DNA of 45,401 nucleotides from Deltaproteobacteria bacterium RIFOXYD12_FULL_55_16 (lineage in GTDB: Bacteria > Desulfobacterota > Desulfobulbia > Desulfobulbales > Desulfurivibrionaceae): assembly GCA_001799255.1 (NCBI GenBank), contig MGTC01000042.1, positions 1 to 45,401 of the forward strand. The letters are read 5' to 3'. The first letter of the stretch is position 1, and each line of letters starts with the position of its first letter. The notes below the pieces were generated by a model. That model was not told the origin of the DNA. It made no database searches and saw only the letters and a program-made list of their open reading frames with translations. Position numbers and translations under genes: made by a program. Positions 8,664-40,285 of this stretch are shown here, piece after piece.

Positions 8664-8732
8664 ATAGAGGGGCGGCTATGGTGCGGGGTGATGCGTCGGG
8701 TTGCAACCGGCAGGAACTGGAGAGTAGACAAC

Positions 8733-9827: not shown

Positions 9828-9833
9828 GCCGTT

Positions 9834-16454: not shown

Positions 16455-18266
16455 ATGAAAACAAATCAGACAGTTGTTCATTCCGTCAAGCGCTTGTGGC
16501 GGCATCTGGATAAGCACCGCAGGTATCAGTGCGGCCTGTTGCTCTTGTTGATGCTGATCAGCGCTGTCGCTGAGGTAATCAGTTTGGGTGCAGTGCTGCC
16601 ATTTTTAGGAGTTCTGGCAGCACCGGAGTTGGTTTATCGGCATTCCCTGGTAGCGGAGTTTGCTCCAGATTTGGGTATAACCAGCGCCGAGCAGTTACTC
16701 CTGCCTTTTACCATAATTTTTGTAATGGCGGCTCTGGTGTCTGGAGCCGTTCGTTTATTGCAGGTCTGGGCCAACACCCGTTTTGCGTATGCGGTTGGTC
16801 ATGATTTAAGCGTCGAGGTTTATCGTCGGACTCTTTATCAGCCATATCAGGTACATCTGGCTCGAAACAGCAGTGAAGTTATCAGCGGCGTGGATAAGGT
16901 CAACAGCGCGATTGTGGTATTAACAAATACGTTGTTGATCTGTGGGGCAAGCCTTATCGTCTTGTGTGTGATTCTGGCTCTGTTAGCGATAGATCCGTTT
17001 GCTGCCTCCATCGCCTTCCTGGGGTTTGGCGCCATTTATGGAGGGGTAACTTGGTGGTCGCGCCAGCATTTACTGCGTAACAGTCAGCGGATCGCTGGCG
17101 CGCAGATCAAACGGCTAAAGGCCCTGCAAGAAGGGCTGGGTGGAATTCGGGATGTCTTGCTTGGCGGCAAGCAGTCAGCATACAGCAATCTCTACCGGCG
17201 GGCAGACTGGGAGATGCGGAAAGCCGAGCGCAACAATCTCACCATTGATTATAGCCCCCGTTATATTGTAGAAGCGTTAGGGATGACGCTTATTGCTTTC
17301 CTCGCCTTTGGACTCGGGCGTCAGACCGGTGAAATGGCTGCGGCCTTGCCAACGCTGGGCGCCCTGGCCATGGGGGCACAACGCCTGTTGCCAAATCTGC
17401 AGCAAATCTATGCTGGTTGGGCGATAATAACCGGTAGACAGGCTTCTCTTCAAGATGTTCTGAAACTTCTCGATCAGCCTTTGCCGCAAGAAATGCTGCT
17501 ACCAGCGCCGTCTCCTCTCGCTTTTCGGAAAGAGATCCGTTTTGATTCGGTTCGGTTTAAATACAGCTCTGCTGGCCCGTTGATTATTGCTGGTCTTGAC
17601 CTTGTCATTCCACGCGGCGCTAGGGTTGGTTTTGTCGGCAGTACCGGCAGTGGCAAAAGCACCACCATTGATCTGTTCATGGGGTTGCTACAACCGACCG
17701 CCGGTCAGATTCTGATTGACAGCCAGCCATTGGCCGACGAAAAAATTCGCGCCTGGCAACGGATAATCGCTCATGTGCCGCAAAGTATTTTTCTGGCGGA
17801 TACCACTCTGGCGGAAAACATCGCCTTTGGGGTGCCGTTAAAGGATATCGATTTTGAACGGGTCAAAAAAGCGGCAGACAGTGCGCATATCGCCGAATTT
17901 ATTGAGAAGAATCCGCAAGGATATCATGCCTTGGTGGGCGAACGGGGCATCCGTTTGTCCGGCGGTCAACGCCAGCGGATTGGAATCGCCCGCGCTCTTT
18001 ATGATCAGGCGGAGATTATGGTTTTTGACGAAGCCACCAGTGCCCTTGATAACACCACCGAACAGGCGGTAATGGACGCTATTGAGAAACTGGGGCGGGA
18101 TTTAACTATTCTGATTATCGCGCATCGTCTTTCTACAGTGAAACGCTGTGATCTGATTGTTGAACTGGATCAGGGTAAAGTGGTGGCTCAGGGAACCTAC
18201 GAGCAATTGCTGGAGTGCAGTCCAACTTTTCATAAGATGGCATATATTCGGGACAGCAATTCGTAA
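16455..18266 (+). CDS. PglK-like ABC flippase (fused permease-ATPase)
   Basis: This 603-residue ABC half-transporter has an N-terminal transmembrane domain (about six helices, residues ~25-320). The nucleotide-binding domain shows Walker A GSTGSGKST, signature LSGGQRQRIGIARAL, Walker B IMVFDEATSALD and H-loop IAHRLSTV. The segment LGALAMGAQRLLPNLQQIYAGW just before the ATPase domain and AEVISLGAVLPFLGVL near the N-terminus resemble PglK-type transporters that flip lipid-linked oligosaccharides. At the head of a glycosyltransferase cluster with no Wzx flippase in the window, it is the likely exporter of the undecaprenyl-linked repeat unit. An MsbA-like lipid A flippase is the alternative. Confidence 0.87.
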   Translation: MKTNQTVVHSVKRLWRHLDKHRRYQCGLLLLLMLISAVAEVISLGAVLPFLGVLAAPELVYRHSLVAEFAPDLGITSAEQLLLPFTIIFVMAALVSGAVRLLQVWANTRFAYAVGHDLSVEVYRRTLYQPYQVHLARNSSEVISGVDKVNSAIVVLTNTLLICGASLIVLCVILALLAIDPFAASIAFLGFGAIYGGVTWWSRQHLLRNSQRIAGAQIKRLKALQEGLGGIRDVLLGGKQSAYSNLYRRADWEMRKAERNNLTIDYSPRYIVEALGMTLIAFLAFGLGRQTGEMAAALPTLGALAMGAQRLLPNLQQIYAGWAIITGRQASLQDVLKLLDQPLPQEMLLPAPSPLAFRKEIRFDSVRFKYSSAGPLIIAGLDLVIPRGARVGFVGSTGSGKSTTIDLFMGLLQPTAGQILIDSQPLADEKIRAWQRIIAHVPQSIFLADTTLAENIAFGVPLKDIDFERVKKAADSAHIAEFIEKNPQGYHALVGERGIRLSGGQRQRIGIARALYDQAEIMVFDEATSALDNTTEQAVMDAIEKLGRDLTILIIAHRLSTVKRCDLIVELDQGKVVAQGTYEQLLECSPTFHKMAYIRDSNS

Positions 18267-18280
18267 TTGTTTCTTGTCGT

Positions 18281-18308
18281 TTTGTAATCCGATGCAGATG
18301 GATATAAA
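18281..18308 (+). promoter_or_regulatory. Weak sigma-70-like promoter candidate before the GT2 gene
   Basis: TATAAA at 18303-18308 is a good -10 box; TTTGTA at 18281-18286, 16 bases upstream, is a poor -35. It lies in the 79-base gap where base composition switches from G+C-rich to A+T-rich, so the A+T bias alone could create the match. Confidence 0.25.
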
Positions 18309-18345
18309 TAGGGATTTTATCTAAGCGAGGTCAAGGAGTATTAAA

Positions 18346-19254
18346 TTGAAAATAGGTATTGTGATAGTAACATTCAATAATGCTGAGATGTTGTATTCAG
18401 TTATAAAAGCATTGCTAGTTCAGACGAGAAGGCATGATGAAATAATTATTATAGATAATGGGAGCATGGATAATACTCATGATATGGTCAAGGAATTTCA
18501 GGATATCCGATATGTTCATCTGGGTGAAAATACTGGTAGCGCTGGTGGCTTTCATGAAGGGATAAGACTCGCTATTGAAAATAACGACTTTGTTATGACC
18601 TTGGATGATGATATCGTACTGGAATCCAATACCCTTGAGATAATGGAAAAATATCTTGTTAAATTATCAGGTGAGAATCGGCTGGGGGCAATAAGGTGTT
18701 GGTTTGTGGGGCAGAATACGATTAATGATGTCAGGAGGATAAAGGACTTTGCCTGGAGAGGGACATTTATAAACAGAGAAGCTGTAATTGATATAGGTTT
18801 GCCTAAAAAAGAGTATTTTCTGTATGCTGAAGATGTTGAATATTCTTACAGACTCAGTAAAAAGGGCTGGGATATGTTCATTGTTCCTGAGTATTTCATG
18901 GTTGATAAAAGAAAAAAAGAAAAATTGAACATGACTGTGTTTGGGCGAGACAGATCATTATATAAAGATAAATTTAGATATTATTATGCTATTCGGAATC
19001 AGATAGATATGTATCTTAGGTATAAAATGTGGAGTAACTTGTTGGAATCTTTGATATATGGAGCAAAGATCATAGTTTTGTTGGGACTTACGCAAAGAGT
19101 AAAAAGTTTTGGTTTTATTAAAGCTATTATTGATGGGGTATGGGATGGATTAAGGGCAAGACTGGGAAAGAACCCTAAATACTTGCCTGATTTAAATACA
19201 GGAATTGAGACAGAGGCGGTTAAAGTTATTCGGACAGGCTGGTGGCTAAAATAG
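18346..19254 (+). CDS. GT2-family glycosyltransferase (rhamnosyl/galactofuranosyl type)
   Basis: This 302-residue GT-A fold enzyme has the N-terminal strand IGIVIVTFNNAEML, a nucleotide-sugar site IIIDNGSMD, and GENTGSAGGFHEGI. The metal-binding motif is LDDDI, and the acidic acceptor-side motif is FLYAEDVEYSYRL. This arrangement (LDDD, then an AEDVE-like motif) is seen in GlfT2- and rhamnosyltransferase-like GT2 enzymes. The start is TTG at 18346, seven bases after AAGGAG. Codon use is A+T-rich, unlike the upstream transporter. A C-terminal hydrophobic stretch may touch the membrane. The sugar transferred cannot be read from the sequence. Confidence 0.85.
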   Translation: MKIGIVIVTFNNAEMLYSVIKALLVQTRRHDEIIIIDNGSMDNTHDMVKEFQDIRYVHLGENTGSAGGFHEGIRLAIENNDFVMTLDDDIVLESNTLEIMEKYLVKLSGENRLGAIRCWFVGQNTINDVRRIKDFAWRGTFINREAVIDIGLPKKEYFLYAEDVEYSYRLSKKGWDMFIVPEYFMVDKRKKEKLNMTVFGRDRSLYKDKFRYYYAIRNQIDMYLRYKMWSNLLESLIYGAKIIVLLGLTQRVKSFGFIKAIIDGVWDGLRARLGKNPKYLPDLNTGIETEAVKVIRTGWWLK

Positions 19255-19335
19255 AAAGAGCTCTCTTTCATTAGCCAGATAGCGAGTCAGATTTCATCTC
19301 TTGAAATTTACTTACAAATTTTTTTGGAGAATTAT

Positions 19336-19860
19336 ATGCATGAAGTTTCCAAATTAAAATTGAACTTGGGGTCGGGTGGTTTACCGATGGAAGGGTATAT
19401 TAATGTTGATATGAATCCCAAAGCGCCTCAAGTTGATGTTGTCTATAATTTAGATGAGTACCCATGGCCCTTTGAGAGTAATAGCGTTGATGAAGTTGTT
19501 ATGGAACATTGTTTGGAACACCTGATAGATCATAACCGGGGCATGAAGGAGATCCATAGAATACTAAAGAAAGGTGGAATAGCCAAAATATCCGTCCCGC
19601 ATTTTACTTGGCAATATGCTTTTATAGACCCAACACATAAGCATTTTTTTGCATACCTGACTTTTTTTTATTACGCAAGAGATTGTGGCTATTTTGATTT
19701 TCAATTTTCATCTTGTAAAGTTCGCATAATTTTTGGGAAAACTCTGTCGGTTTGGAATTATCTACTTGAACCTTTGTTTAATTTAATTCCGAATGTTTAC
19801 GAACAGAGTCCTTTGAGAATCTTTCCTGCCATTCATGTTACAGCAAGGCTAATAAAATAA
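19336..19860 (+). CDS. Class I SAM-dependent methyltransferase (small)
   Basis: The protein begins with a methyltransferase motif I variant (LNLGSGGLPMEGYINVDM). VYNLDEYPWPFESNSVDEVVMEHCLEHL follows, and then the post-core segment IHRILKKGGIAKISVPHF. ATG 19336 follows GGAGA at five bases and is preferred over a TTG at 19324, giving 174 residues. This type is common in polysaccharide loci, where it may modify a sugar or the chain end. It is A+T-rich like its neighbours, and the acceptor is unknown. Confidence 0.75.
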   Translation: MHEVSKLKLNLGSGGLPMEGYINVDMNPKAPQVDVVYNLDEYPWPFESNSVDEVVMEHCLEHLIDHNRGMKEIHRILKKGGIAKISVPHFTWQYAFIDPTHKHFFAYLTFFYYARDCGYFDFQFSSCKVRIIFGKTLSVWNYLLEPLFNLIPNVYEQSPLRIFPAIHVTARLIK

Positions 19861-19897
19861 ATGTGATGGATGAGGTGGAAAGAGTCGAGGTGTTGTG

Positions 19898-20998
19898 ATG
19901 GCTGATCTGGGCGATATAAAGAAAATACTCATATTTACCGGAGGGGGAATTGGCGATATCGTTATGTCAATTCCGACGTTACGTTTATTTGGTGAGTGTT
20001 TCAAGGACAAAGAAATAGATATAGCAGTTTCTTCACGTGTGAAAGATGTCATTGAGGACATAGTTGACTGGCATGAGGTTATTGTCTGGGACAAGGGGTT
20101 GGTTAAAAAGACGATCACTCGGTCTTTAATGTCAAATTATGGGTTGTATCTGAATTTGCGAAAAAGAAAATATGATCTTCTTATCGATATAGAGGCAATC
20201 GAATCATGGCAGGCGGCTATTAAGCGATTTTTGTTTTATAAAGTGATTAGTCCAGGCAGGATAGCGGGTCGTGACACCGATGGGTATGGTTTTTTTTTGG
20301 ATTATAAAGTTGCTGATAGTTTATGTAGCGCTGAACATGAGGTGGATAGGAGGTTGTCCTTGGTGGCGGCCTTAGGTTGTCAAACGATATCTGTTGATTC
20401 AAGTATTAAGATTGATGAATGTCAGATGAGATATGCTGATAATCTTTTGAGAGAGAAAGGGATTGGGGAAAGTGATTTTGTTGTTGGTATTAATCCGAAT
20501 GCATTTAAACAGTCATGTCAATGGGGTGTAGAAAAATTCATTAGTTTGATAAAAAAAATCCTTGAAAAGTATAAGGCTAAGATTGTCGTTATTGGCAGTG
20601 AAGGCGATAGGGCTTTAGTAGAAAAGGTAATTAAAGAAGTAAACAGTGATGATTGTATTCCACTGACAGGCCTGGGATTAATGCAATTAAGCGCAGTAAT
20701 TTCAAAGTTTCATATTTTTATAACCAATGATACCGGCCCGATGCATCTTGCTGCAGCAGTCAAAACGCCAGTAGTGGCAATTATTGGGATAGCTCCTAAG
20801 CGGTACGCACCATATATTGCCGAAGATCGCAAAAGAGTTCTATGCGTTGATAATCTGCTTTGTCGACCGTGCAGTAAAGTCTATTGCAAGAAGAAATTGT
20901 GCCTTGATTCTATTACAGTTGATATGGTGTGGGAAAGTTTTATGTCATTGGCGTATAATTTGAAAAATATTATATATGACAGGGCAGGTGGAGCATGA
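19898..20998 (+). CDS. GT9-family (heptosyltransferase-like) glycosyltransferase
   Basis: This 366-residue GT-B enzyme has the GT9 N-terminal motif KKILIFTGGGIGDIVMSIPTL, an inner segment INPNAFKQSCQWGVEKF, and the donor-binding motif FITNDTGPMHLAAAV. These match the ADP-heptose:LPS heptosyltransferase family, but in surface-glycan clusters GT9 proteins can use other donors. A GTG at 19895 lies just upstream; ATG 19898 is seven bases after GAGG and is preferred. A C-terminal Cys-rich stretch (CVDNLLCRPCSKVYCKKKLC) resembles those seen in several GT9 members. It overlaps the next gene by four bases. Confidence 0.85.
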   Translation: MADLGDIKKILIFTGGGIGDIVMSIPTLRLFGECFKDKEIDIAVSSRVKDVIEDIVDWHEVIVWDKGLVKKTITRSLMSNYGLYLNLRKRKYDLLIDIEAIESWQAAIKRFLFYKVISPGRIAGRDTDGYGFFLDYKVADSLCSAEHEVDRRLSLVAALGCQTISVDSSIKIDECQMRYADNLLREKGIGESDFVVGINPNAFKQSCQWGVEKFISLIKKILEKYKAKIVVIGSEGDRALVEKVIKEVNSDDCIPLTGLGLMQLSAVISKFHIFITNDTGPMHLAAAVKTPVVAIIGIAPKRYAPYIAEDRKRVLCVDNLLCRPCSKVYCKKKLCLDSITVDMVWESFMSLAYNLKNIIYDRAGGA

Positions 20999-21579
20999 AT
21001 ATAGGTTTCTTTGAAAGGGGTTACTTGCCTATTAAAGTTGTTAGATTGGCAGCAGATATTCTTACAGATTACGGCGGAAAGCTTGCGGATATTGCCTGTG
21101 GAAAAGGTGTTCTTCTGAAAGAGGTTGAGCACCATGGCAATAAGAGTGTCATCGGTATTGATCTTGCTCCTGATCAATTGGCTATCTCAAAGGCAAACGG
21201 GATGACGGTTGTAAGAGGCAGTATATTTGAGATGCCGTTTAAAGACGGCAAGTTTGATATTTCTGTATGCTTTAATACCTTATATAACTTTCTATCATTA
21301 AGTACACTTGAGCCAGTTTTTAGAGAGATGGCAAGAATTATAAGAATGGATGGGAAGATTGTTATTGATATAAGAAATAATAGGAATATTCTCCTAAATA
21401 TAAAATACTGGCTTCACATGAAAAGAGGGAAACACCCTACTATTTCCCATTCATTGGAAGAAATAAATGCACTGATGGAGCAGAATGGATGCAGTCTTGC
21501 TCAGAAGAAAGCGGTAGGTTTTAATAACCCGTATATAGCGTGGGGTTATATTCTAATTTACGAAAAAAAAGCGAGATAA
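20995..21579 (+). CDS. Class I SAM-dependent methyltransferase (type 11)
   Basis: This 194-residue enzyme has motif I in LADIACGKGVLLKEVE, the acidic loop VIGIDLAPDQLAIS, and FDISVCFNTLYNFLS as the later core strand. It overlaps the GT9 gene by four bases (ATGA), so the two are coupled. Small type-11 methyltransferases in glycan loci usually O- or N-methylate a sugar; the target here is unknown. It ends two bases before the likely GTG start of the aminotransferase. Confidence 0.8.
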   Translation: MNIGFFERGYLPIKVVRLAADILTDYGGKLADIACGKGVLLKEVEHHGNKSVIGIDLAPDQLAISKANGMTVVRGSIFEMPFKDGKFDISVCFNTLYNFLSLSTLEPVFREMARIIRMDGKIVIDIRNNRNILLNIKYWLHMKRGKHPTISHSLEEINALMEQNGCSLAQKKAVGFNNPYIAWGYILIYEKKAR

Positions 21580-21581
21580 GC

Positions 21582-22727
21582 GTGATACCTTCAGCCGGCA
21601 CACCAATAAAAATTAAAGATATAATTAAGGCAGTTATCTTTTCTTGTGATTTTGAAGATGAGATTAAGAGGATGCTCGGTGTTAATTATGCCTTTGCTGT
21701 TAATTCCGGCACAACCGCATTTTATATTATACTTTCTGTATTAAAAAAGTTGTCAGATAAGAGAGAGGTCATCCTTCCAGCATACACTGCCCCCTCTCTT
21801 CTCCTGCCGATAAAAAAAGCAGGGCTTGAATACAGGCTGGTTGATGTTTCTCTTGATACCTTTAATATGGACACGGAAAAGTTAGCGGAGGTAATATCTG
21901 ATAATACGCTGGCTGTCCTTTTTATCCATATGTTTGGCATACCTGTAGAAATGGAAAAATCGAAAAATATAAAAGGTGTCTTTAGGATAGAGGATGCTGC
22001 GTCATCTTTTGGTACAAGAAGGGGAAAACAATTTACGGGTACATTTTGCGATATTGGTTTTGTGAGTTTCAATAGGGGCAAAAATCTTTCAACTGTTTCA
22101 GGCGGTGTTATTGTCACGGATAATCTTCAATTTGCAGATGCTGTTAAAAGAAGAATGGCAGATTTGTCGCGCCCTTCTCCCTTTGCAAGGGTGAAAATAT
22201 TTTTAAAGGCATTAGGGCTATCTCTTGCCGTAAGACCTTGGTTTTACAGTATTTTTAGGCATATAGTTTCCGGCTTCAAATACACTTCGCTCCATGAGGA
22301 TTTTGATAGTTATCACTATACTAAGTTTCAGGGATCACTTGGATGCTTATTGCAGGAGAGATCTGAAACAATATTTCTTGACCGAGAAGCCAAAGGGAAC
22401 CTGCTTTACAACGGGCTTAAAAATATTAAAGGGATAAGATTACCATGTCTCCCGGATGACTGGAGGATTGTGTTTAACCAGTTTCCATTTCTTGTGGAAG
22501 ATGCCAAGAAAAGAATGAAGGTTTTGGATGCAATAATTAAAGCGGGTGTTGAGGCAACCATGCTTTATGATAAGCCAATACATAAGATATATGATGAGCC
22601 TCACAAGGATTACCCCAATGCGGAATATATGGCAGATAGACTTATCTTAATTCCGGTCCATCATTATGTGACGGAAAGAAGTCTTTATAAATTGCTTGAG
22701 GCTATCGAAACAGAGATCAAAAAATAG
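21582..22727 (+). CDS. DegT/DnrJ/EryC1/StrS-family PLP aminotransferase (divergent)
   Basis: The N-terminal part IPSAGTPIKIKDI, the FAVNSGTTAFYIILSVL phosphate-binding segment, and VILPAYTAPSLLLPIKKAG identify the sugar aminotransferase family. The PLP lysine is probably the K in SFNRGKNLSTVSGG. The usual GEGG stretch after that lysine is missing, so the protein is divergent. The frame is open from 21540, but GTG 21582 gives a normal VIPSAG N-terminus and avoids overlap with the methyltransferase (381 residues). It would install an amino group on a nucleotide-linked keto sugar. Ordinary A+T-rich coding of this block is seen. Confidence 0.78.
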   Translation: MIPSAGTPIKIKDIIKAVIFSCDFEDEIKRMLGVNYAFAVNSGTTAFYIILSVLKKLSDKREVILPAYTAPSLLLPIKKAGLEYRLVDVSLDTFNMDTEKLAEVISDNTLAVLFIHMFGIPVEMEKSKNIKGVFRIEDAASSFGTRRGKQFTGTFCDIGFVSFNRGKNLSTVSGGVIVTDNLQFADAVKRRMADLSRPSPFARVKIFLKALGLSLAVRPWFYSIFRHIVSGFKYTSLHEDFDSYHYTKFQGSLGCLLQERSETIFLDREAKGNLLYNGLKNIKGIRLPCLPDDWRIVFNQFPFLVEDAKKRMKVLDAIIKAGVEATMLYDKPIHKIYDEPHKDYPNAEYMADRLILIPVHHYVTERSLYKLLEAIETEIKK

Positions 22728-22798
22728 ATACAAAGAATTGCGGTCAACCTACCACTCCCTTTTTTGATTTTCCCCGCAATCAATAGAGAGGTTAATTT

Positions 22799-23578
22799 GT
22801 GAGTATAGAAAGACTTCATACAGGTACCCCGGAGTGGATTAGGTATTTCGGTAATCATATTGTTCGGTATCAATTTGCAGTAGATCAAGTAAAAGCAAGA
22901 TTAGTAGAAAACATCCTAGATATTGCTTGCGGTGTGGGTTACGGGAGTCATTACTTGGCTGATAGTCTGCCAAATTCCTTGGTAAAGGGTGTTGATATCA
23001 GTTCCGCTGCCATCGAGGAAGCTAATAGAGTTTATGGCCACGGCAGAATTTCATTTAATTTGGCTGATGCTATTAACCTGCCTGCCCATATTACAAAAGT
23101 TAAATATGACTTGATTGTTAGTCTTGAGACCTTGGAGCATCTTAATTCCCAGGAACTATTCTTGAAAAACATTTGTACGATGTTAAAGCCAGGGGGGGTG
23201 TTTATTGTCAGCACCCCAAATGTTGATATTACAGGGCATTACGAAAAAGGTTCGCAGAAATTTCATACAAAAGAATATACCTTTGAAGAATTCAAGTCAG
23301 CTCTTTCGGACGCGGGTTTTAATTCTTGTGTTTTATATGGGCAATATTATTCGGCGGAGGGTCTGTTGCGTAACGAAATACGTGAGGAACTAAATTTATT
23401 GAAGGCCACTCCTTTAGTTCGGCTTAGTTTTTTGTTGGAGAAATGGTTAAGAAAAAGGAACTATTTGCCAGTAATGCCAGAAAAGGAATCGGATTTCGAA
23501 ATAAAAGAAATTGGCAACAATTTCTCCGGCAAGAATTCTCCATTTGTTTTTATCTCCGTTTGTCAGGCGTCACTTTAA
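22799..23578 (+). CDS. Class I SAM-dependent methyltransferase
   Basis: This 259-residue enzyme has motif I in ILDIACGVGYGSHYLAD, then KGVDISSAAIEEANRVYG, YDLIVSLETLEHL and MLKPGGVFIVSTPNVD, a typical type-11/12 core. A C-terminal extension of about 90 residues may form a lid. The start is GTG at 22799, seven bases after GAGAGG. It is the third methyltransferase in this glycan block, implying a heavily methylated polymer or methylated chain end. The 71-base gap before it has a weak ATTGCGG/CCGCAAT inverted repeat and no gene. Confidence 0.8.
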   Translation: MSIERLHTGTPEWIRYFGNHIVRYQFAVDQVKARLVENILDIACGVGYGSHYLADSLPNSLVKGVDISSAAIEEANRVYGHGRISFNLADAINLPAHITKVKYDLIVSLETLEHLNSQELFLKNICTMLKPGGVFIVSTPNVDITGHYEKGSQKFHTKEYTFEEFKSALSDAGFNSCVLYGQYYSAEGLLRNEIREELNLLKATPLVRLSFLLEKWLRKRNYLPVMPEKESDFEIKEIGNNFSGKNSPFVFISVCQASL

Positions 23579-23799
23579 GCAGGTAAAGCGGGCGTTCAAG
23601 TTTTAATGATAAAACTCCTGATGAGGCATATTGGTAAAAACTCCAGTCTGGGTACCCCGGGCCAGCCATCAAAATGGCGGCTTAACCTCAAAGTTTATCC
23701 ACCTTATTTTTGCCGCTTACCTGTCCGAATAACCGTGATCACTTCTGTTACACCTCTTTTATGCGGCAAAGGCTGATATTGTGGGGGTTTATACAATCC

Positions 23800-25761
23800 A
23801 TGCGTCCGTTAAAATTTAGATATGATATTCAGGCCCTTCGAGGTTTTGCTGTCCTTGGTATTCTATTTTATCACGCAAAGCTTCCTCTTTTTTCTGCTGG
23901 TTTCCTTGGTGTTGATGTTTTTTTTGTGATTTCGGGATTTTTGATTACTAGTCTTATTCGTGAGAGAATAGAGCAAGATAGTTTCAGCTTTATTGAATTC
24001 TATTTTCGTCGTGCCAAACGGTTATTGCCCGCAGCGTATGTCACTTTACTGATTACGGCATTGCTGGCCCCGGTTTTTCTGGCAAGTAGTGAAATGAATG
24101 ATTTTCGAGCCCAGATGTGCGGGGCTGTGACATTTATGTCAAATGTCGTCTTCTGGCGTCAATCAGGTTATTTTGAAGGTGTTGCAGAATTAAAACCTCT
24201 TTTGCATACCTGGTCTCTGGCAATCGAAGAACAATATTATTTTGTTTTGCCAGCATTGATGTTTTTTACTCCTCGGCGACGCTGGTTTCATATCGCAATT
24301 TTGGGTTTTATAGGGAGTTTTGCTCTATGCATATTTATGGTCCAATGGAAAGCTGATGTCTCTTTCTATCTTTTGCCCACACGATGGTGGGGGTTTGCCA
24401 TTGGCTCCATTGGTGCATTAATTCCAACTAGTGAACGTCTCGATCGAGTATTGCAAGGGGCTTTTTGGCCGGCTTTATTGGCTTTATTAGTGTTGCCGAC
24501 AGTAAAAATATCAAATCCCCATCCTGGTCTGAGTGCATTATTGATTTGCATCGCTACCTTATTGATTATTTTACGCAAGCATCCTTTTCTTTTTCACACA
24601 TCTGCATTGCGCGGTGTCGTGAAAACTGGTGATATTTCTTATTCGCTATATCTGGTGCATTGGCCACTTTTCGCGTTTCTGAATAATTCCTGGCTGGGTA
24701 ATAATACCAGTCCACCATTCCTAATTCGCATGGGAATAATGTTCCTTTCTTTTATTTTGGCATGGATACTGAATCGTTGCATTGAAGAGCCATTCCGCAA
24801 ACCAGAAATTAAGTTGACTCGAAAACTGCTGGCACTTACTGTTGCTTCATCTCTTTTTCTATTTTTGTTACCTATAGGCATCATTAAAGCAGTGCAACCA
24901 GAGAAGAATTATGCGCATCTTCGCAGAGCCAATCTAGGATTTGGCCGAGAATGCGTAAGCGGTGATAGTTTTATACCAATACCAGAGTGCCGGAACTCTG
25001 ATCAGCCTGAGATATTAGTATGGGGGGATTCCTTTGCAATGCATCTGGTGCCTGGCCTTATTATTGCGGAAGAAGATGAGGGGCCAACAATTATTCAGGC
25101 TACTCGGTCAGTCTGTGGGCCATTATTAGGTGTTGCTCCCACTAATGTTAAGTACAATCAAGAATGGGCGAAGAAGTGCCTCGAATTCAACGAATCGGTC
25201 GTATCATATTTGGCTGAGGCAAATTCGGTTAAAACCGTGGTGATATCAAGTCCTTTTCGGCCTTACTTGTCTAAACATCATTGGAGTCAGGATTGGAGTC
25301 TGCTTAAGAAGAATCATAGCGATGATGGTTTTTATTTGGTGGAACCAAGTTTAACAGAGGCCATTGCCGGAACCAAAAAAACTGTCGACGCAGTCCGATC
25401 TCTTGGGAAAAGAGTCGTGGTTGTTGCGCCCCCCCCCTCTAGCGATTTTGATATTGGTAGATGCCTGGAACGACTTGAAAGAGGGTTGCCAATCCTGGGT
25501 GCTGCAAACGAATGTCAAATCGATGTGAAATCCTGGAAGAAAACGAACAGCGCTGTGCTAGAGTTTTTGGCTGTTCTGTCCGAACAAGCAAATGTAGAAG
25601 TTATTAATTTTAGTGATTTTCTTTGTGATTCGATAAGTTGTAAAACACAAAATGAAAATATTTTTATCTACCGAGATGCTGAACATTTATCGTATGATGG
25701 TTCATCTTATTTGGCAGATAAAATTAGGTTGACATCGCAGATTCAAAAGTTGGCGAAGTGA
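23800..25761 (+). CDS. Acyltransferase-3 / SGNH O-acyltransferase (OafB-like)
   Basis: The N-terminal half (residues ~1-370) is an integral membrane acyltransferase-3 domain with YDIQALRGFAVLGILFYHA, then VDVFFVISGFLITSLI and EEQYYFVLPALMFF, and about ten membrane segments. The C-terminal half is a periplasmic SGNH hydrolase-like domain with the GDS block (EILVWGDSFAMHL) and the catalytic DxxH (DAEHLSYDGSSYL). Such fusions O-acetylate surface polysaccharides. The frame opens at 23710, but ATG 23800 gives a normal N-terminus (653 residues). A run of nine C residues at 25429-25437 lies inside the SGNH domain. The 221-base gap upstream of 23800 holds no gene. Confidence 0.88.
   Translation: MRPLKFRYDIQALRGFAVLGILFYHAKLPLFSAGFLGVDVFFVISGFLITSLIRERIEQDSFSFIEFYFRRAKRLLPAAYVTLLITALLAPVFLASSEMNDFRAQMCGAVTFMSNVVFWRQSGYFEGVAELKPLLHTWSLAIEEQYYFVLPALMFFTPRRRWFHIAILGFIGSFALCIFMVQWKADVSFYLLPTRWWGFAIGSIGALIPTSERLDRVLQGAFWPALLALLVLPTVKISNPHPGLSALLICIATLLIILRKHPFLFHTSALRGVVKTGDISYSLYLVHWPLFAFLNNSWLGNNTSPPFLIRMGIMFLSFILAWILNRCIEEPFRKPEIKLTRKLLALTVASSLFLFLLPIGIIKAVQPEKNYAHLRRANLGFGRECVSGDSFIPIPECRNSDQPEILVWGDSFAMHLVPGLIIAEEDEGPTIIQATRSVCGPLLGVAPTNVKYNQEWAKKCLEFNESVVSYLAEANSVKTVVISSPFRPYLSKHHWSQDWSLLKKNHSDDGFYLVEPSLTEAIAGTKKTVDAVRSLGKRVVVVAPPPSSDFDIGRCLERLERGLPILGAANECQIDVKSWKKTNSAVLEFLAVLSEQANVEVINFSDFLCDSISCKTQNENIFIYRDAEHLSYDGSSYLADKIRLTSQIQKLAK
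25429..25437 (+). repeat. C9 homopolymer inside the acyltransferase gene
   Basis: Nine consecutive C residues encode Pro-Pro-Pro in the SGNH domain of the acyltransferase. A one-base slip would truncate that domain. Homopolymeric C/G tracts in O-acetyltransferase genes are a known basis of phase variation in other bacteria; here it is only a candidate. Confidence 0.6.
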
Positions 25762-25794
25762 ATGGCCGAAAAAACAGTGAAGGGAGAGAATTAA

Positions 25795-27606
25795 ATGGCC
25801 GCATATTGTAGACTGCAGCAAAAGAATGGGAAGCCCGACATAGCAGTATGCATCCTGTTTTTTGAGAAACTTACACAAACGATTGAATGTATTAAAAGCT
25901 TTTTATCTTCTGGCGTAAACATCTATGTGCTTAATAATGGTTCGTCATCTGCATCTAGAGAATTGCTAGTAAGATTTTGTGAACCACATAAACAGATTGA
26001 GATTTTTGATTCAACAAACAATCTTGGTGTAAGTGGTGGGAGAAATTACCTGATAAACAATACGACTGAAACTTGGCTCTTCTTTGTTGATAATGACATC
26101 ATCATGAAGACAAGTAATTGGCTTGACAGGTTAGCGGAGCATATTTCTATAAATAGAGATACAGAAGTATTTGCGCCAAAAATGTATGTTGTTCATACAA
26201 AATCATACGCATTACCATATTCATATAGTGTTACGGATAAGTACGCTTTTACCAATCATCTAATTATTGACGGTCAAGTAAATGTTTTTCCTGGTGGCGC
26301 ATCAATAGTTAATCGTAATATCTTTGTAAGGCTGGGTATGTATGACGAAAGAATTTTTATAGCGCACGAGGATACAGAGCTTTGCCTCAGAGGAATTCTG
26401 TCTAAGAGTCCGGTTAGAACAAGAATAATAAGTGACATTGAAGTTGTTCATGACCATCGCCCAGCTAAAAAAGAGGTTGATAAGTTAGCAGCAAAAACAA
26501 GATATGATAAAAATATTACTAATGACTCTTATAATTGGATTGCGGAAAAGCATGGGATAACATTGATTGATTCCGCTAGGCTTGGTACCGTTTATAATCT
26601 GGAACATATGACAAATAAATACAATCCAGCATCAATATATTTCTGGAAGCAGTTCATTCCACGTCAACTCAAGAAATTACTCAGAGAAGTTTACATGTCG
26701 AAAATACAAAAGCGAGCGCTCCCATCCGCAGCTTCGCTCTATATGTGCGATAGGTGTAACTTCGCTTGCACAGGTTGTCGCAGGCAACATATTGGTATAG
26801 ATAAGTCTAAAGATATGACTCTTGCAACAGTACAACGATTAGTATCCTTATATCCGAGTCTTAACCGGTTTTGTCTGGCAGGACAAGGGGAGCCAACCTT
26901 GTGCGCGGATTTTGTAGAGATAGCGGATTATTTAAAGGTGATTGGGAAATATGTAACTATAGTTACGAATGGGACAAACCCAGACAAAATTCTTAGCTTA
27001 AATCATGCGCCCGACAACTTGTCGATTAGTCTGTATGGGTATAATAATGATCAATACCTATCTTATGTCGGTTTACCGTATTTTGATAAAGTAATTAATA
27101 GTTTTTTGCAATTGAAGAGGAAATATAGGAACGTAGGTTTTTCATATATTGTCAATAAGGATAATTATAAGAATCTTGAGGGGGTATTGTCTCTCTGTGA
27201 TGAAGTGAAACCTGATTTTGTCGACTTACACAATTATTTAGCCTATACCCCTGATAACAAGACGGAAATATCTAAAATAATTAAAATACAAGATGTTGAG
27301 ATAATAAAACATATTGAATCTGTCTGCAATGGACGGAAGTATCCAGTAAATACACCTGTTTATATTAATCTTGATAAACCAAAATTTTTATGCAGGTCAT
27401 ACAATTTTGTTATCAACTTGGATGGCTCTGGGAACATTGGAGGGTGTCAACGACAGGTAACCCCGAATCTTATTTTTGGGAATATATTTACAGACAATGA
27501 CCCATATAATTCTGAGAATATGGCCGAATTGCGAAAAAGAATGTTTCAGAAAAAGTTGATTCACAAGGAATGTGGTTTTTGTTTCGGTAATTGGAGGGAA
27601 GAGTAA
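25795..27606 (+). CDS. Glycosyltransferase GT2 - radical SAM fusion protein
   Basis: Residues ~1-275 form a GT2 glycosyltransferase: IAVCILFFEKLTQTIECI, nucleotide site IYVLNNGSSS, DSTNNLGVSGGRN, the metal motif FVDNDIIM (DxD) and FIAHEDTELCLRG. From about residue 310 a radical SAM domain follows with the motif CDRCNFACTGC, in which Cys321-x3-Cys325-x2-Cys328 should bind the [4Fe-4S]-SAM cluster. FCLAGQGEPTL and VTIVTNGTNPD are typical radical SAM core segments. The C-terminal part has further cysteines (GGCQRQ, ECGFCFGNW) resembling a SPASM-like auxiliary cluster. GGGAGAG gives a good ribosome binding site. The fusion links glycosyl transfer with radical chemistry; the reaction is unknown. 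Confidence 0.85.
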   Translation: MAAYCRLQQKNGKPDIAVCILFFEKLTQTIECIKSFLSSGVNIYVLNNGSSSASRELLVRFCEPHKQIEIFDSTNNLGVSGGRNYLINNTTETWLFFVDNDIIMKTSNWLDRLAEHISINRDTEVFAPKMYVVHTKSYALPYSYSVTDKYAFTNHLIIDGQVNVFPGGASIVNRNIFVRLGMYDERIFIAHEDTELCLRGILSKSPVRTRIISDIEVVHDHRPAKKEVDKLAAKTRYDKNITNDSYNWIAEKHGITLIDSARLGTVYNLEHMTNKYNPASIYFWKQFIPRQLKKLLREVYMSKIQKRALPSAASLYMCDRCNFACTGCRRQHIGIDKSKDMTLATVQRLVSLYPSLNRFCLAGQGEPTLCADFVEIADYLKVIGKYVTIVTNGTNPDKILSLNHAPDNLSISLYGYNNDQYLSYVGLPYFDKVINSFLQLKRKYRNVGFSYIVNKDNYKNLEGVLSLCDEVKPDFVDLHNYLAYTPDNKTEISKIIKIQDVEIIKHIESVCNGRKYPVNTPVYINLDKPKFLCRSYNFVINLDGSGNIGGCQRQVTPNLIFGNIFTDNDPYNSENMAELRKRMFQKKLIHKECGFCFGNWREE

Positions 27607-27608
27607 TT

Positions 27609-28667
27609 ATGTATGGAAAAGATCAGATTAAAGTCTTGTTTTCATCTAATAGGAACCCACATTTTGAGACCTTCACTGATTATATTGAAAAGGCGTTTAA
27701 AGAAGAAGAATGCGAGGTTGTATTTTTTGAAAATCGGGATTTTTTAATCCCCGGAAGAATTAGAAAGAGATTATCCGTGTTGCATTCGTTAGATTTAAAA
27801 TTTTTGAATAAGAAGCTTTTGAAAATAGCTGAGGATTTTAAGCCTGATTTGTTTTTAGAAAATGGTGGTTGGAATATATTGCCTGAGACAATTCAGATAA
27901 TGAAAAAAAATGGCATAAAAACAGCATTATGGACCAATGATCCGCCAAAATCTCAGGTCTACGACTTTGATCCTATTCGTTGTGTTGCACCGTATTATGA
28001 TTTTGTTTTTATAACCGGAACTGATTGTTTTGGTGGATTTGCCGACCAACAAATTAATAGCATTAGTCTCCTGCCTTTTGCCTGTGATCCTGATTTTCAG
28101 AAACCGATTGAATTGACATCTGAAGAAAAAAGAAGATATGGCTTTGATGTTTGTTTTGTAGGGTCAGGGATTAATGTTTATTCGCAAAGGATTAGGTTTT
28201 TGGAGAGTCTTGCAGACTTTAATTTGGGGGTATGGGGGCCTGGATGGGAGACATTGCCGTTTGATTCTCCGCTCAAGAAGAATGGATGTATAAAAGGTGG
28301 CGCATTAAGGCCGGCGGAGTGGATTAAGTTATTCAGCGCAGCAAAGATAGTTTTGCACGCACATTATCGTGACCCCATGGAAAGCTTTCCGCACTACCAG
28401 GCAAATCCAAGGGTTTTTGAAGCGCTCGCATGTGGGGCCTTTTTGCTTTTGGATAAACAGAAAGATGTTATGACAATGTTTAAGGATGGCGAGCATCTTG
28501 TTACTTATAAAGATGTAGATGAACTACGGGCAAAAGTCTGCTTTTATTTGCAAAATGATACTCTGAGAAAGAAGATAGCAGAGAGTGGTCGAAAGGAAGT
28601 TCTTGAGAGACACACCTATAGGCATCGAATTAAAGATATATTAAATATGGTTGGGTTAAATGGATGA
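27609..28667 (+). CDS. CgeB-like glycosyltransferase (GT-B), first paralog
   Basis: This 352-residue protein has the CgeB / DUF3880-type N-terminal half followed by a GT-B C-terminal domain. Visible landmarks are IKTALWTNDPPKSQVYDF, LPFACDPDFQKP, VCFVGSGINVYSQRIRFLE, LGVWGPGWE and PRVFEALACGAFLLLDKQKD; the last is the nucleotide-sugar site of GT1/GT4-like enzymes. ATG 27609 follows GGAGGG; an in-frame TTG at 27591 lies inside the upstream gene. It overlaps the next gene by four bases. It is clearly related to the protein encoded at 29459 but is more A+T-rich. It probably adds a sugar to the growing repeat unit. Confidence 0.8.
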   Translation: MYGKDQIKVLFSSNRNPHFETFTDYIEKAFKEEECEVVFFENRDFLIPGRIRKRLSVLHSLDLKFLNKKLLKIAEDFKPDLFLENGGWNILPETIQIMKKNGIKTALWTNDPPKSQVYDFDPIRCVAPYYDFVFITGTDCFGGFADQQINSISLLPFACDPDFQKPIELTSEEKRRYGFDVCFVGSGINVYSQRIRFLESLADFNLGVWGPGWETLPFDSPLKKNGCIKGGALRPAEWIKLFSAAKIVLHAHYRDPMESFPHYQANPRVFEALACGAFLLLDKQKDVMTMFKDGEHLVTYKDVDELRAKVCFYLQNDTLRKKIAESGRKEVLERHTYRHRIKDILNMVGLNG

Positions 28668-29338
28668 CAGTTTTCATGGATAGAAACTTGAAGTATAGAT
28701 TCGATTCTGTCAAAGCTCTGGTTCTTTTGAAGCATCTTTACAAGAAATGTTTATGCAATATTAAAGGGGTAAGACTTTGCGGAGAGAACGCATATATTTC
28801 TCTTCGTGCAATTGTTATGGGTGGTGATAGAATCCGAATTGGCAGTAATGCTGGTGTTCGGGAGTTTGCTGAACTGATTGTCGAATTGCCTGGTGGCCGG
28901 ATTGAGATTGGAAGGGGAACTTATATATTTCCTTATAGTCAATTGAGGTCATTTGATGGTTGGATAAAATTAGGTGAGAATTGTACTGTAAACAGGATGA
29001 GCATTTTATATGGAAACGGAGGGCTCGACATCGGCAATCATGTAAGAATATCACCGAATGTTACGATTTTGGCTCAGAATCATGTCTTCAGTGATCCTGA
29101 TATACTTATTCATGAACAGGGGATGATAGGTTGCGGTATAAAGATTGAAGATGATGTTTGGATAGGTGCGGGGGCTATTGTTTTAGATGGTGTGACGATA
29201 GGTACGGGTTCGGTAATTGGTGCCGGCGCAGTTGTATCTAAAAATATACCGCCATTTTCGGTCGCTGTTGGCGTTCCGGCACAGGTAGTGGGGAAGAGAG
29301 AGAGCTTGTCAAAATCCATCAAGTACTCCGTCTGCTGA
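28664..29338 (+). CDS. Hexapeptide-repeat (LbH) acyltransferase
   Basis: This 224-residue protein shows left-handed beta-helix hexapeptide repeats from about residue 45 (IRIGSNAGVREFAE, IEIGRGTYIFPYS, IKLGENCTVNRMS, LDIGNHVRISPNV). The acetyl-CoA site region is IKIEDDVWIGAGAIVLDGVTIGTGSVIGAGAVV, and VGVPAQVVGKR is the usual terminal motif. WbbJ/maltose-O-acetyltransferase-like enzymes of this kind acetylate sugars. The four-base ATGA overlap with the CgeB-like gene ties the two together. It is the last gene of the A+T-rich block. Confidence 0.87.
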   Translation: MTVFMDRNLKYRFDSVKALVLLKHLYKKCLCNIKGVRLCGENAYISLRAIVMGGDRIRIGSNAGVREFAELIVELPGGRIEIGRGTYIFPYSQLRSFDGWIKLGENCTVNRMSILYGNGGLDIGNHVRISPNVTILAQNHVFSDPDILIHEQGMIGCGIKIEDDVWIGAGAIVLDGVTIGTGSVIGAGAVVSKNIPPFSVAVGVPAQVVGKRESLSKSIKYSVC

Positions 29339-29458
29339 GAACTGAAATAACTTTTTTGGTTAAAGAGATATCTTTGCGGTGTGTACGGAGCAATGGGGAA
29401 GGTGCAGAGTTAGTAATTATGATGTCGACAAGTATCTTATATGGGAGGCTAGTGATCA

Positions 29459-30463
29459 ATGAAAATAGTATATGTCCGAAGCTATTTTTCCAAGTTTAAG
29501 ACCCTGTATGATTATTTGGAGGAAGCGTTGCAAAGGGCAGGCCATGAGGTTTACCCTTTTGATTATCGGGCCTATGGCATTCCGGCCCGGATCAGGAAAT
29601 ACAATAAATACATCGAGGATGTTGGTCTCTATAAAATAAATCATGATTTTACTCGTCTGGTGGAGGAGGTTCGTCCAGACATGCTGTTGATGTTGCATGG
29701 GTTTACTATTCACGCCTCTACTCTGCGGAGCATGAAGGAGAAATACGGGATGATCACAGTTAACTGGCTCTGTGATTATCCCCGGGAGTTCGAAATCGCC
29801 TGTCATTATGCCTCTCTGTTTGATCATTTTCTGGTTTCAGGGACGGATGCTTTGAGAAGATTGAGACTGGCCGGACATAAAAACGTACATCTTTTCCCCT
29901 TCGCTTGTGAGCCGTTATATCATAAACCTGTCAAGCTTTCTGCCGTAGAGGAGGAGCAGTTTTGTTCCGATGTTTGTTTTGTCGGGTCGATGTATCCCGG
30001 TCGGATGCGGATGCTGGAGAAGATTTCTGATTTCAATATTGCTATTTGGGGGCCACGGTGGAACGAAGTCGAGGATGATTTTCCTTTGTATCACCTGGTT
30101 CGGGGCGGAAGTCTTGATGTCGAAAATTGGGTCAGTGTGTATGCCGCAACAAAGATTGCCTTGAATAATATTAGTTCGTTCGCGCCCTATGTTGATAATA
30201 TGATGAATACCAGACTGTTCGAGATACTGGCCTGCCGTAGACTGCAGTTAGTTGATACCAGAGATGATGTCTTGATGTATTTCACCTCCGGCGATGAGCT
30301 TGTTTGTTATAGCAGTATTGATGAGTTGCGGAGCCAGATCGTCTACTATCTGAATCATCCCGAGAAAGCGCAGGAAATAGCGGAAAGTGGTTTTCGCAAA
30401 GTCATGCAGCTCCATACCTATGATCATAGGGTCAGAGAACTGATGGATATTATCAAAGAATGA
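29459..30463 (+). CDS. CgeB-like glycosyltransferase, second paralog
   Basis: This 334-residue protein has the same plan as 27609-28667: ITVNWLCDYPREFE, FPFACEPLYHKPVKL, VCFVGSMYPGRMRMLEKI, FNIAIWGPRW, and NTRLFEILACRRLQLVDTRDD near the C-terminus. Its G+C content is visibly higher than that of its paralog, so the two are old relatives or have come from different sources. GGGAGG precedes the ATG by about 11 bases. It overlaps the next gene by four bases, so the following PHP-like membrane protein is probably translated with it. It is likely a glycosyltransferase for the polymer, with the donor unknown. Confidence 0.78.
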   Translation: MKIVYVRSYFSKFKTLYDYLEEALQRAGHEVYPFDYRAYGIPARIRKYNKYIEDVGLYKINHDFTRLVEEVRPDMLLMLHGFTIHASTLRSMKEKYGMITVNWLCDYPREFEIACHYASLFDHFLVSGTDALRRLRLAGHKNVHLFPFACEPLYHKPVKLSAVEEEQFCSDVCFVGSMYPGRMRMLEKISDFNIAIWGPRWNEVEDDFPLYHLVRGGSLDVENWVSVYAATKIALNNISSFAPYVDNMMNTRLFEILACRRLQLVDTRDDVLMYFTSGDELVCYSSIDELRSQIVYYLNHPEKAQEIAESGFRKVMQLHTYDHRVRELMDIIKE

Positions 30464-33690: not shown

Positions 33691-35124
33691 ATGAGGTTGA
33701 CCAATGTTTTAAGAAAAATGTCACATTTAAGGGTGAAAAATGCGGAGTTGGATGATTCGGTTATTCGTGTAGTTCCGGAGTTTATTGATGATCTTGGGGC
33801 TTCCCTTGCCGCAGCTGCCAGTTTGACTATTGCCGAAGCCATGGTCGACCAGGTGTCCGTTGTTCCTTTGCCGCCCCCTGATAATTATGCCGTAACGGTT
33901 ATTGTGGAAGAAGAAGCAGTTAAAGAAGCAGCCGTTACAGAAGAGGCAGTTACAGAGGAGGTAGTTGCAGAAGAGGCGGTTACAGAGGAAGCAGTTACAG
34001 AAGAGGCAGTTACAGAGGAAGCAGTTGCAGAAGAGGCAGTTGCAGAAGAGGCAGTTGCAGAAGAGGCGGTTACAGAAGAAGCAGTTGCAGAAAAAATAGT
34101 TGCCAGGGGCGCAGTCGAGGCTGTGCCTGTTGATCCTGATTGTTGCCATTACATAGTGTTTCGGGATTTCCCCGATCAGAGAGAAAATGGCGATGACAGC
34201 GGCGTTACGGACGCTCTCTGGGTTCGTATGTGGACTGGGTTAAACGAATACCTGCTGGATATTTGCTGTGAAAAAAAGGCCCCTGATTTCACGGCGATCC
34301 CCGTAATCGTCGAAATGATCCATGATTCCTTGCTGGCAGATAATGCGCTGATCCGGATGCTGTTTGCCAAAAAGCGAGGTGATGATCTCACTTCCCACAT
34401 GCTGGATATGGCCGTAGTGGCCACCAAGATGGGCATCGTCCTTGGCTATGACCGTGACCGCTTGCGGGAATTGGCGCTCTGTGCCCTGTTGCACGACATC
34501 GGCATGCTGAGGGTTTCGCCGGATGTGGTGATGCGGGAAAGCGAACTGAGTAAGATCGATCTGGTCGAAATCCAAAAACATCCCCTTTATTCATACGAAA
34601 TTCTCATGGAGAGCGGTCTGTCTGCCGTGATCGCCGAGGTTGCCCGCCAGGTGCATGAAAGGGAGGATGGCTCCGGTTATCCCCGAGGCTTGCGGGGGGG
34701 GGAGATTCATGAGTATGCCTCTATCATCAGTCTGGCCGATACTTATACCGCTATGCTCCAGCCCCGGCCGCAGCGGGAGAGGAAAATTCCCTTTGAGATC
34801 GTCAAGGAGATTATAGAGCGGGGGCAAGGACAGTTCAATCGGCAGCTGATGAAGGTGCTGATTGACGAGTTCTCGATTTTTCCTGTTGGTCTCTATGTGC
34901 AATTGAACACCGGCGAGATCGCCAAGGTGAAGAAGGCGAACAAGTTGGCGCCGTTGCGGCCTGAGGTGATGGTGGTGACTGATGTCCGGGGCCGTCGGCT
35001 GGCAGAGCCCAAGGAATACAATCTGATGCGCGAGCCGTTGTTGACGGTAGTTGATTCTGCTTTTGAACAGGAAGGCGGATTTACCGGCAAGCCGACGAAG
35101 GCTTCAGCGGGGGGCGCAGCATGA
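33691..35124 (+). CDS. HD-GYP domain protein with acidic pentapeptide-repeat linker
   Basis: Residues ~1-75 have no family I can name. Residues ~81-135 are an acidic linker of eleven EEAV-type pentapeptides. The C-terminal HD-GYP domain (residues ~230-420) has ALLHDIGML, HEREDGSGYPRGLRGGE and SLADTYTAML. Active HD-GYP enzymes hydrolyse c-di-GMP. Here the usual HHE is VHE, and HDIGK is HDIGM, so at least one metal-ligand His is absent and activity may be altered. The gene overlaps the export fusion by four bases. Together with the PilZ gene it suggests c-di-GMP control of polysaccharide export. A G9 tract lies at 34694-34702. Confidence 0.85.
   Translation: MRLTNVLRKMSHLRVKNAELDDSVIRVVPEFIDDLGASLAAAASLTIAEAMVDQVSVVPLPPPDNYAVTVIVEEEAVKEAAVTEEAVTEEVVAEEAVTEEAVTEEAVTEEAVAEEAVAEEAVAEEAVTEEAVAEKIVARGAVEAVPVDPDCCHYIVFRDFPDQRENGDDSGVTDALWVRMWTGLNEYLLDICCEKKAPDFTAIPVIVEMIHDSLLADNALIRMLFAKKRGDDLTSHMLDMAVVATKMGIVLGYDRDRLRELALCALLHDIGMLRVSPDVVMRESELSKIDLVEIQKHPLYSYEILMESGLSAVIAEVARQVHEREDGSGYPRGLRGGEIHEYASIISLADTYTAMLQPRPQRERKIPFEIVKEIIERGQGQFNRQLMKVLIDEFSIFPVGLYVQLNTGEIAKVKKANKLAPLRPEVMVVTDVRGRRLAEPKEYNLMREPLLTVVDSAFEQEGGFTGKPTKASAGGAA
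33931..34095 (+). repeat. Eleven-unit 15-bp tandem repeat in the HD-GYP gene
   Basis: Eleven consecutive 15-base units, each close to GCAGTTGCAGAAGAG, encode pentapeptides of the form A-V-(T/A)-E-E. Three neighbouring units (34021-34065) are identical, which points to recent slippage. The reading frame is kept by any gain or loss of whole units. The linker is expected to be extended and strongly acidic. Confidence 0.9.
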
Positions 35125-37898: not shown

Positions 37899-37916
37899 AG
37901 ATGGAGAACTTGAGAC

Positions 37917-40139: not shown

Positions 40140-40141
40140 TG

Positions 40142-40212
40142 CTCTTGCAAAAAGCCTGAAAAAGGTTTTTGTTCGTTACCCCGGCTTTTGCGAGGGGACG
40201 GCTTTTTGTGAG
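40142..40212. repeat. Intergenic palindromic element between Wzz-like and Wzy-like genes
   Basis: CTCTTGCAAAAAGCC (40142-40156) can pair with GGCTTTTGCGAG (40183-40194) or, alternatively, with GGCTTTTTGTGAG (40200-40212). The two right arms are mutually exclusive. It could act as a terminator or attenuator, or it could be a REP-like element. It begins two bases after the stop codon. Confidence 0.5.
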
Positions 40213-40285
40213 ACCATCTTTCTTGAGTTGGGTTAAAATGACTGATCATTTCCTCATTTCTCCTGTCTCATTTTCCATCTGATAG

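Follow-up and report, generated by a model that had tools for sequence, protein, structure and literature searches.

What does a radical enzyme do when it is built into the same polypeptide as a glycosyltransferase? This question is raised by a gene in a 45,401-nucleotide stretch of DNA (the window) from Deltaproteobacteria bacterium RIFOXYD12_FULL_55_16, contig MGTC01000042.1. The window is part of the 61,273-base contig C42 of a draft genome (G000) that comprises 90 contigs and is 85% complete. At 25795-27606 on the plus strand, stop codon included, the gene encodes a 603-residue protein in which a family 2 glycosyltransferase (GT2) domain is followed by a radical S-adenosylmethionine (SAM) domain. 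Our analysis confirmed that this fusion is real and conserved. As for its function, we consider it somewhat better than an even chance that the fused radical SAM domain acts on the sugar handled by the GT2 domain, making the protein a two-step glycan enzyme. The parts are known and the combination is new, and the fusion appears to be undescribed in the literature searched: no GT2-radical SAM fusion was named in the titles and abstract openings of open-licence articles, the full texts of which lay mostly outside the scope of the search.

The domain composition was first proposed in an interpretation made without database searches (the sequence-only reading), which described a GT2 domain with DxD and HED motifs, a CxxxCxxC motif at Cys321, Cys325, and Cys328, an intact frame, and a good ribosome binding site. 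Each of these points was borne out, the domains by Pfam and the motif positions by script. The Glycos_transf_2 match (PF00535) covers residues 18-178 (E 2.9e-15, 57 bits versus a curated cut-off of 23.3), and the Radical_SAM match (PF04055) covers residues 317-467 (E 2.9e-16, 60.5 bits versus 29.5). Within the region encoding the GT2 domain and linker (25795-26700, plus strand), DND occupies residues 99-101 and HED residues 191-193. The DxD and ED motifs are catalytic in GT2 enzymes, and D99, D101, and E192 are invariant in 8/8 sequences. The radical SAM core (26743-27195, plus strand), also covered by an AlphaFold2 (AF2) model, carries the cluster motif CNFACTGC (26755-26778, plus strand) at the expected cysteines, together with GQGEP at 363-367 and TNG at 391-393. 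The 603-residue frame is open throughout, and a likely ribosome binding site, AGGGAGAG, lies six bases ahead of the ATG (25781-25788, plus strand). Promoter-like and terminator-like sites occurred at chance level only. Among the 25 named NCBIfam families listed for the protein, none reached its curated cut-off, the best scoring 64.9 bits against a required 380.

Seven further loci encode the same pairing, bringing the total to eight, and distantly related bacteria are among the hosts. Four loci, counting the window, have the GT2 domain first. The others are a full-length copy in a congener (G011), which is 48% identical to the window protein and spans the junction, a 593-aa copy from another family of the same phylum (G444; 60% identical), and a 594-aa copy from a bin named Candidatus Falkowbacteria (L009). 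The DNA of the G011 copy is also found in MGTD01000050.1 of Deltaproteobacteria bacterium RIFOXYD12_FULL_56_24. In the remaining four loci the order is reversed and the pair sits inside larger proteins: 2486 aa in an Ignavibacteriales metagenome-assembled genome (MAG; L010), at least 2473 aa, running to the contig end, in a Chlorobiaceae MAG (L011), 1400 aa in a Deferribacteraceae MAG (L012), and 1563 aa in G746 (locus L025). L010, L011, and G746 all belong to one class search. Extra glycosyltransferase domains lie downstream in the L010 and L025 proteins, as detected by Pfam, and in the L011 protein, as judged by eye; the rest of the L012 protein gave no further Pfam match.

Could the fusion be an artifact of a misjoin or sequencing error that merged two genes? 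The draft state of the genome and the existence of separate genes in distant relatives would allow it. However, the same junction is crossed in G011, G444, and L009, and the G+C content is flat across it (GT2 half, 35.8%; radical SAM half, 36.3%). As independent assemblies carry the same junction, we rejected this explanation, which retains a vanishingly small probability; the earlier impression that no assembly join was present thus stands. The notion that homologs might always exist as two proteins is contradicted at close range by the G011 and G444 copies. More distant, unfused relatives do occur, in 2/87 genomes.

Phylogenetic trees of the two domains are broadly congruent and contain the same main groups. 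The window and G444 copies group in both (support 90 and 99), as do L010, L011, and G746 (support 100 and 92). In the radical SAM tree, the reverse-order copies cluster together (support 98); in the GT2 tree, a protein from L014, which lacks the radical SAM domain, groups with L012 (support 57). A single swap of domain order would most simply account for these trees. Both orders, together with broadly congruent trees, are what one expects if it is the pairing, and not the order, that matters, and the recurrence of the pairing in distant bacteria, even reversed, suggests that the two steps are physically coupled. Fusion to a glycosyltransferase in both domain orders also points to the substrate of the radical enzyme, and it makes the function approachable with one protein.

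How dedicated and how common is the pair? All eight close radical SAM copies that we found are fused to this GT2. The routes by which they were found differ: the window was given, G011 was reached with the full-length protein, and L009 to L012 were reached with peptide patterns from the GT2 part, so that the fused state of these loci is not independent evidence. G444 (E 1e-137) and G746 (E 4e-142), by contrast, were found by the radical SAM profile alone. The next matches of that profile are two unfused proteins (E 3e-25 and 8e-23), each adjoining a GT2 gene and one of them a fragment at a contig end. In counts that include the seed genomes, the radical SAM profile matched 2/297 phylum genomes at E 1e-30 and, at E 1e-20, 3/294, 1/47, and 0/296 genomes, as well as 3/87, two of which are the distant, unfused relatives. 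The full-length protein matched in 2/27, 2/193, and 5/257 genomes, three of the five being partial matches to GT2 only. A contig scan with a two-row alignment, both patterns of which fall in the GT2 part, returned seven loci, five of them fused and one being G011 again; the same scan with the single protein alone gave no match. There were no relatives among the pattern candidates from viral contigs, and although 12 plasmid records and 1 phage record matched, none covers 80% of the query. Across the genomes sampled, the family is rare and its distribution patchy.

Exactly seven cysteines of the radical SAM half are conserved without exception among the seven intact copies, namely, the three of the SAM cluster motif and four C-terminal ones (Cys533, Cys551, Cys593, and Cys596; 27391-27582, plus strand), the latter four being invariant in 9/9 sequences of alignment A6. 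These four are the further C-terminal cysteines that the sequence-only reading had noticed, and they are spaced C533-X12-G546-X4-C551 and C593-X2-C596. The twitch signature, as given in the cited passages of PMC6231123, is CX9-15GX4C followed by CX2C, with one auxiliary cluster, and the layout here fits a twitch domain with one predicted four-cysteine cluster. A SPASM domain, the possibility raised earlier, has seven C-terminal cysteines arranged as CX9-15GX4C-CX2CX5CX3C-C. In this protein only four cysteines occur from Cys533 onward, the last of them, Cys596, 7 residues before the end of the chain, and no SPASM match was found by Pfam at E 1e-3. No eighth invariant cysteine occurs in the radical SAM half of the seven intact copies: Cys360 is found in 6/7, as is Cys511, and Cys468 in 5/7.

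The AF2 model of residues 303-603 has a mean predicted local distance difference test score (pLDDT) of 84.9 and a predicted template modeling score (pTM) of 0.86. Among the best 50 of 1670 fold matches, to which all statements about fold neighbors refer, the peptide maturase SkfB came first (E 1.4e-13), followed by DesII (E 6e-13) and BlsE (E 1.5e-11) and then, among others, by SuiB, viperins, MoaA, and anSME. DesII acts on a sugar nucleotide and BlsE on a sugar nucleoside; they show 15-17% identity, have different chemistry, and are unfused. SkfB, a sactipeptide maturase, likewise has a twitch C terminus (PMC6231123, cited passages), whereas the protein described here has a GT2 domain in addition. 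The fold alone does not decide between a sugar and a peptide substrate, and the same source, in the passages cited, notes how difficult it is, within this subfamily, to predict fold or function from similarity networks.

Among characterized enzymes, BtrN (PDB 4M7T), a dehydrogenase of the twitch radical SAM type from the butirosin pathway, combines a radical SAM core with a single four-cysteine auxiliary cluster, the arrangement predicted here. In the cited parts of PMC6231123 and PMC9012708, its twitch cluster is described as fully ligated and its reaction as the two-electron oxidation of a cyclitol. Unlike the window protein, BtrN has no fused glycosyltransferase, and it was matched by sequence in L034, a distant unfused relative (BtrN, E 1.4e-7; BlsE, E 1.2e-8), and not in the profiles of the fused domains themselves. 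A second parallel comes from the aminoglycoside epimerases NeoN and HygY. We know of no glycosyltransferase fused to either, and HygY is reportedly a twitch epimerase with latent dehydrogenase activity. NeoN performs its radical SAM chemistry on a sugar that is already attached to a scaffold (PMC10991966, cited passages), as may the domain here. A conserved donor cysteine would be expected of an epimerase of this type; none beyond the cluster ligands is invariant in the radical SAM half here, with Cys360 and Cys511 each in 6/7 intact copies. A stand-alone radical SAM protein on the Brachyspira plasmid pBHWA1, encoded between rfbF and rfbC, is 25% identical over residues 307-603 and, unlike the window protein, is not fused to GT2. 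A further point of comparison is AviX12; the cited passages mention an epimerization in avilamycin biosynthesis.

If the fold does not decide the substrate, does the genomic context? Glycan genes surround each fused copy; flagellin does not. The window and G444 copies lie in exopolysaccharide loci with polysaccharide export genes. Flagellin was found in 6/8 host genomes and is near the fusion gene in two (L010 and L025); in G000, G011, G544, and G545 it and the fusion gene are on different contigs, and it was not found in G542 or in G444, which is 85% complete, so that its absence there is no proof. In L010, a single gene, a glycosyltransferase by eye, stands between the giant gene and a flagellin gene (Pfam), with a second flagellin after it; in L025, a 900-aa frame with multiple glycosyltransferase domains and one glycosyltransferase gene lie between the giant gene and a flagellin. 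Flagellin as a universal acceptor is thus not favored. With polysaccharide loci on one side and a patchy flagellin on the other, a sugar is the simplest substrate for all the loci to have in common.

Coupling the radical step to sugar transfer is the most economical reading. The GT2 domain would add a sugar to a growing surface glycan, and the radical SAM-twitch domain would generate a 5'-deoxyadenosyl radical that abstracts a hydrogen atom at a carbinol carbon of the same sugar, either as the nucleotide sugar or just after transfer. The twitch cluster could then serve as electron acceptor, giving a keto-sugar; alternatively, hydrogen might be returned on the other face, giving an epimer. In either case the sugar would pass between the two sites of the fusion protein, with the radical step coming before or after transfer. 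We infer sugar as the substrate class from the context common to the loci, and the radical chemistry from the twitch layout. We regard dehydrogenation to a keto-sugar as a reasonable possibility that falls well short of probable, epimerization as rather unlikely, and any other sugar chemistry as very unlikely. The lack of an eighth invariant cysteine speaks for oxidation of the BtrN type over epimerization of the NeoN type with a cysteine donor. The sequence-only reading had proposed epimerization, dehydrogenation, or methyl transfer, coupled to transfer of the sugar. The BtrN-like one-cluster C terminus and the presence of DesII and BlsE among the nearest folds favor dehydrogenation or epimerization, although peptide maturases are equally near. 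Methyl transfer lost ground, as no B12-binding domain was among the Pfam matches. More tentatively, and at clearly less than even odds, the family might be seen as a dedicated class of "radical glycosyltransferases," in which the radical SAM-twitch domain edits a carrier- or protein-linked glycan sugar right after its placement by GT2, in the assembly of both polymers and flagellin glycans. If true, such in-line radical editing would give surface glycans keto- or epimeric sugars by a new route.

Several observations weigh against action on the sugar. In the fold comparison, first place goes to a peptide maturase, SkfB, with DesII behind it; SuiB and anSME are among the other matches, and BtrN is absent from the best 50 and is not listed by the sequence profiles of the fused domains. 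A full-length structure model reached a pLDDT of only 48 and was not used. The search routes that led to six of the eight fused loci favor fused copies, which weakens the argument that the pair is always fused; our odds, based mainly on context and motifs, stay the same. To our knowledge, there is no sugar analysis of these organisms. The same fold neighbors and the flagellin genes near the fusion gene in two loci feed the main rival explanation, in which an acceptor peptide or protein (flagellin, pilin, or some other surface protein) is first modified by the radical SAM domain and then glycosylated by the fused GT2. We think this unlikely, given the distribution of flagellin and the polysaccharide export genes described above. 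In addition, no intergenic gap exceeds 131 bases across 18346-30463, leaving little space for a precursor gene (no dedicated precursor search was made), and no peptide-recognition domain is among the Pfam matches. Also doubtful, to a similar degree, is an epimerase of the NeoN/HygY type that uses a cysteine hydrogen donor on the transferred sugar, an idea that overlaps the epimerization share of the sugar reading. Cys360 or Cys511, each in 6/7 copies, leaves room for such a donor, and HygY, going by a paper title only, offers a twitch precedent. NeoN acts on the finished aminoglycoside with Cys249 as donor (PMC10991966, cited passages), but beyond the seven cluster ligands no cysteine is invariant in the radical SAM half here.

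It is also possible, if improbable, that the radical SAM domain is mainly structural or regulatory for GT2 and that its chemistry is dispensable. The copy in G011 (L008:7980-9806) has lost CxxxCxxC, GEP, and the N of TNG, and Pfam recognizes its GT2 domain and not Radical_SAM, yet it retains the full frame and the four C-terminal cysteines. No other forward frame of the motif region yields CxxxCxxC, so a frame error was rejected as the cause. Moreover, GT2 occurs without the radical SAM domain in L013 and L014, the genomes of which contain no radical SAM protein of this family at E 1e-12. The L013 locus (Altiarchaeales) has the GT2 and five neighbor genes in common with the L009 locus, at 52-65% identity, and no radical SAM domain. 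Against this idea, the catalytic motifs are kept in seven copies, and the window and G444 proteins are more alike in the radical SAM half than in the GT2 half (65% versus 55%). The dead G011 copy also has the longest terminal branch in the radical SAM tree (0.79, versus 0.26 for the window and 0.31 for G444) and an ordinary one in the GT2 tree (0.52, versus 0.51 and 0.36), as if constraint had relaxed once catalysis was lost. We view the G011 domain as a natural pseudoenzyme half, and the radical step looks like an optional tailoring step, since GT2 exists without it in L013 and L014. The congener with a dead domain and the syntenic locus without one are natural controls; if the in-line editing reading is true, they would correspond to glycan variants.

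Returning to the window, the surface-glycan setting proposed earlier is upheld by the surrounding export, Wzc-like, acyltransferase, and glycosyltransferase genes. The locus (16455-30463, plus strand; Pfam and G+C) encodes an ABC (ATP-binding cassette) exporter, a GT2, three methyltransferases, a GT9, a DegT aminotransferase, an AT3-SGNH acyltransferase, the fusion protein, and glycosyltransferases. Polysaccharide export, Wzc-like, and O-ligase-like genes, the last a weak match, follow at 35121-41659 (plus strand; Pfam/NCBIfam). G+C content is 36-45% in segments of 18346-30463 and 51-58% elsewhere in the window, with 51.7% in the ABC gene; the low value suggests that 18346-30463 is a foreign cassette. 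The fusion gene and the two genes after it form a cassette shared with G444: the fusion gene itself (60% identity), a glycosyltransferase gene (Glyco_trans_1_2; 27609-28667, plus strand, start TTG 27591 in the open reading frame list; 59%), and a hexapeptide-repeat acyltransferase gene (28664-29338, plus strand; 56%), with one methyltransferase gene lying between the first two in G444. The AAA, export, Wzc, and ligase-like genes of the two loci are just 27-37% alike.

A few minor observations were made along the way. The giant proteins with radical SAM, GT2, and multiple glycosyltransferase domains (L010:4654-12111 and L025:10566-17946) are encoded near flagellin genes, and the long frame of L025 is divided between two overlapping frames of 1563 and 900 aa. 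Upstream of the giant gene, both loci have a second radical SAM gene with the motif CPFHCYFC, followed by a methyltransferase-like gene (L010:1126-2283, by eye; L025:7053-8246, Pfam). Radical SAM genes occur in glycan loci, and another, stand-alone one lies between glycosyltransferase-like genes, by eye, on the window's own contig (L006:4176-5357, minus strand). At and just past the window end, L006:38-1186 holds a short-period repeat (TAPQV and the like) broken by a run of N. At 8688-10889, two adjacent radical SAM frames resemble, by eye, those of the futalosine menaquinone pathway. An HD-domain protein with a repetitive EEAVTEEAV stretch is encoded at 33691-35124, and next to it, at 35121-37898, lies a gene for a 925-aa protein with FG-GAP repeats, an OmpA domain, and Poly_export/SLBB, an architecture that struck us as unusual.
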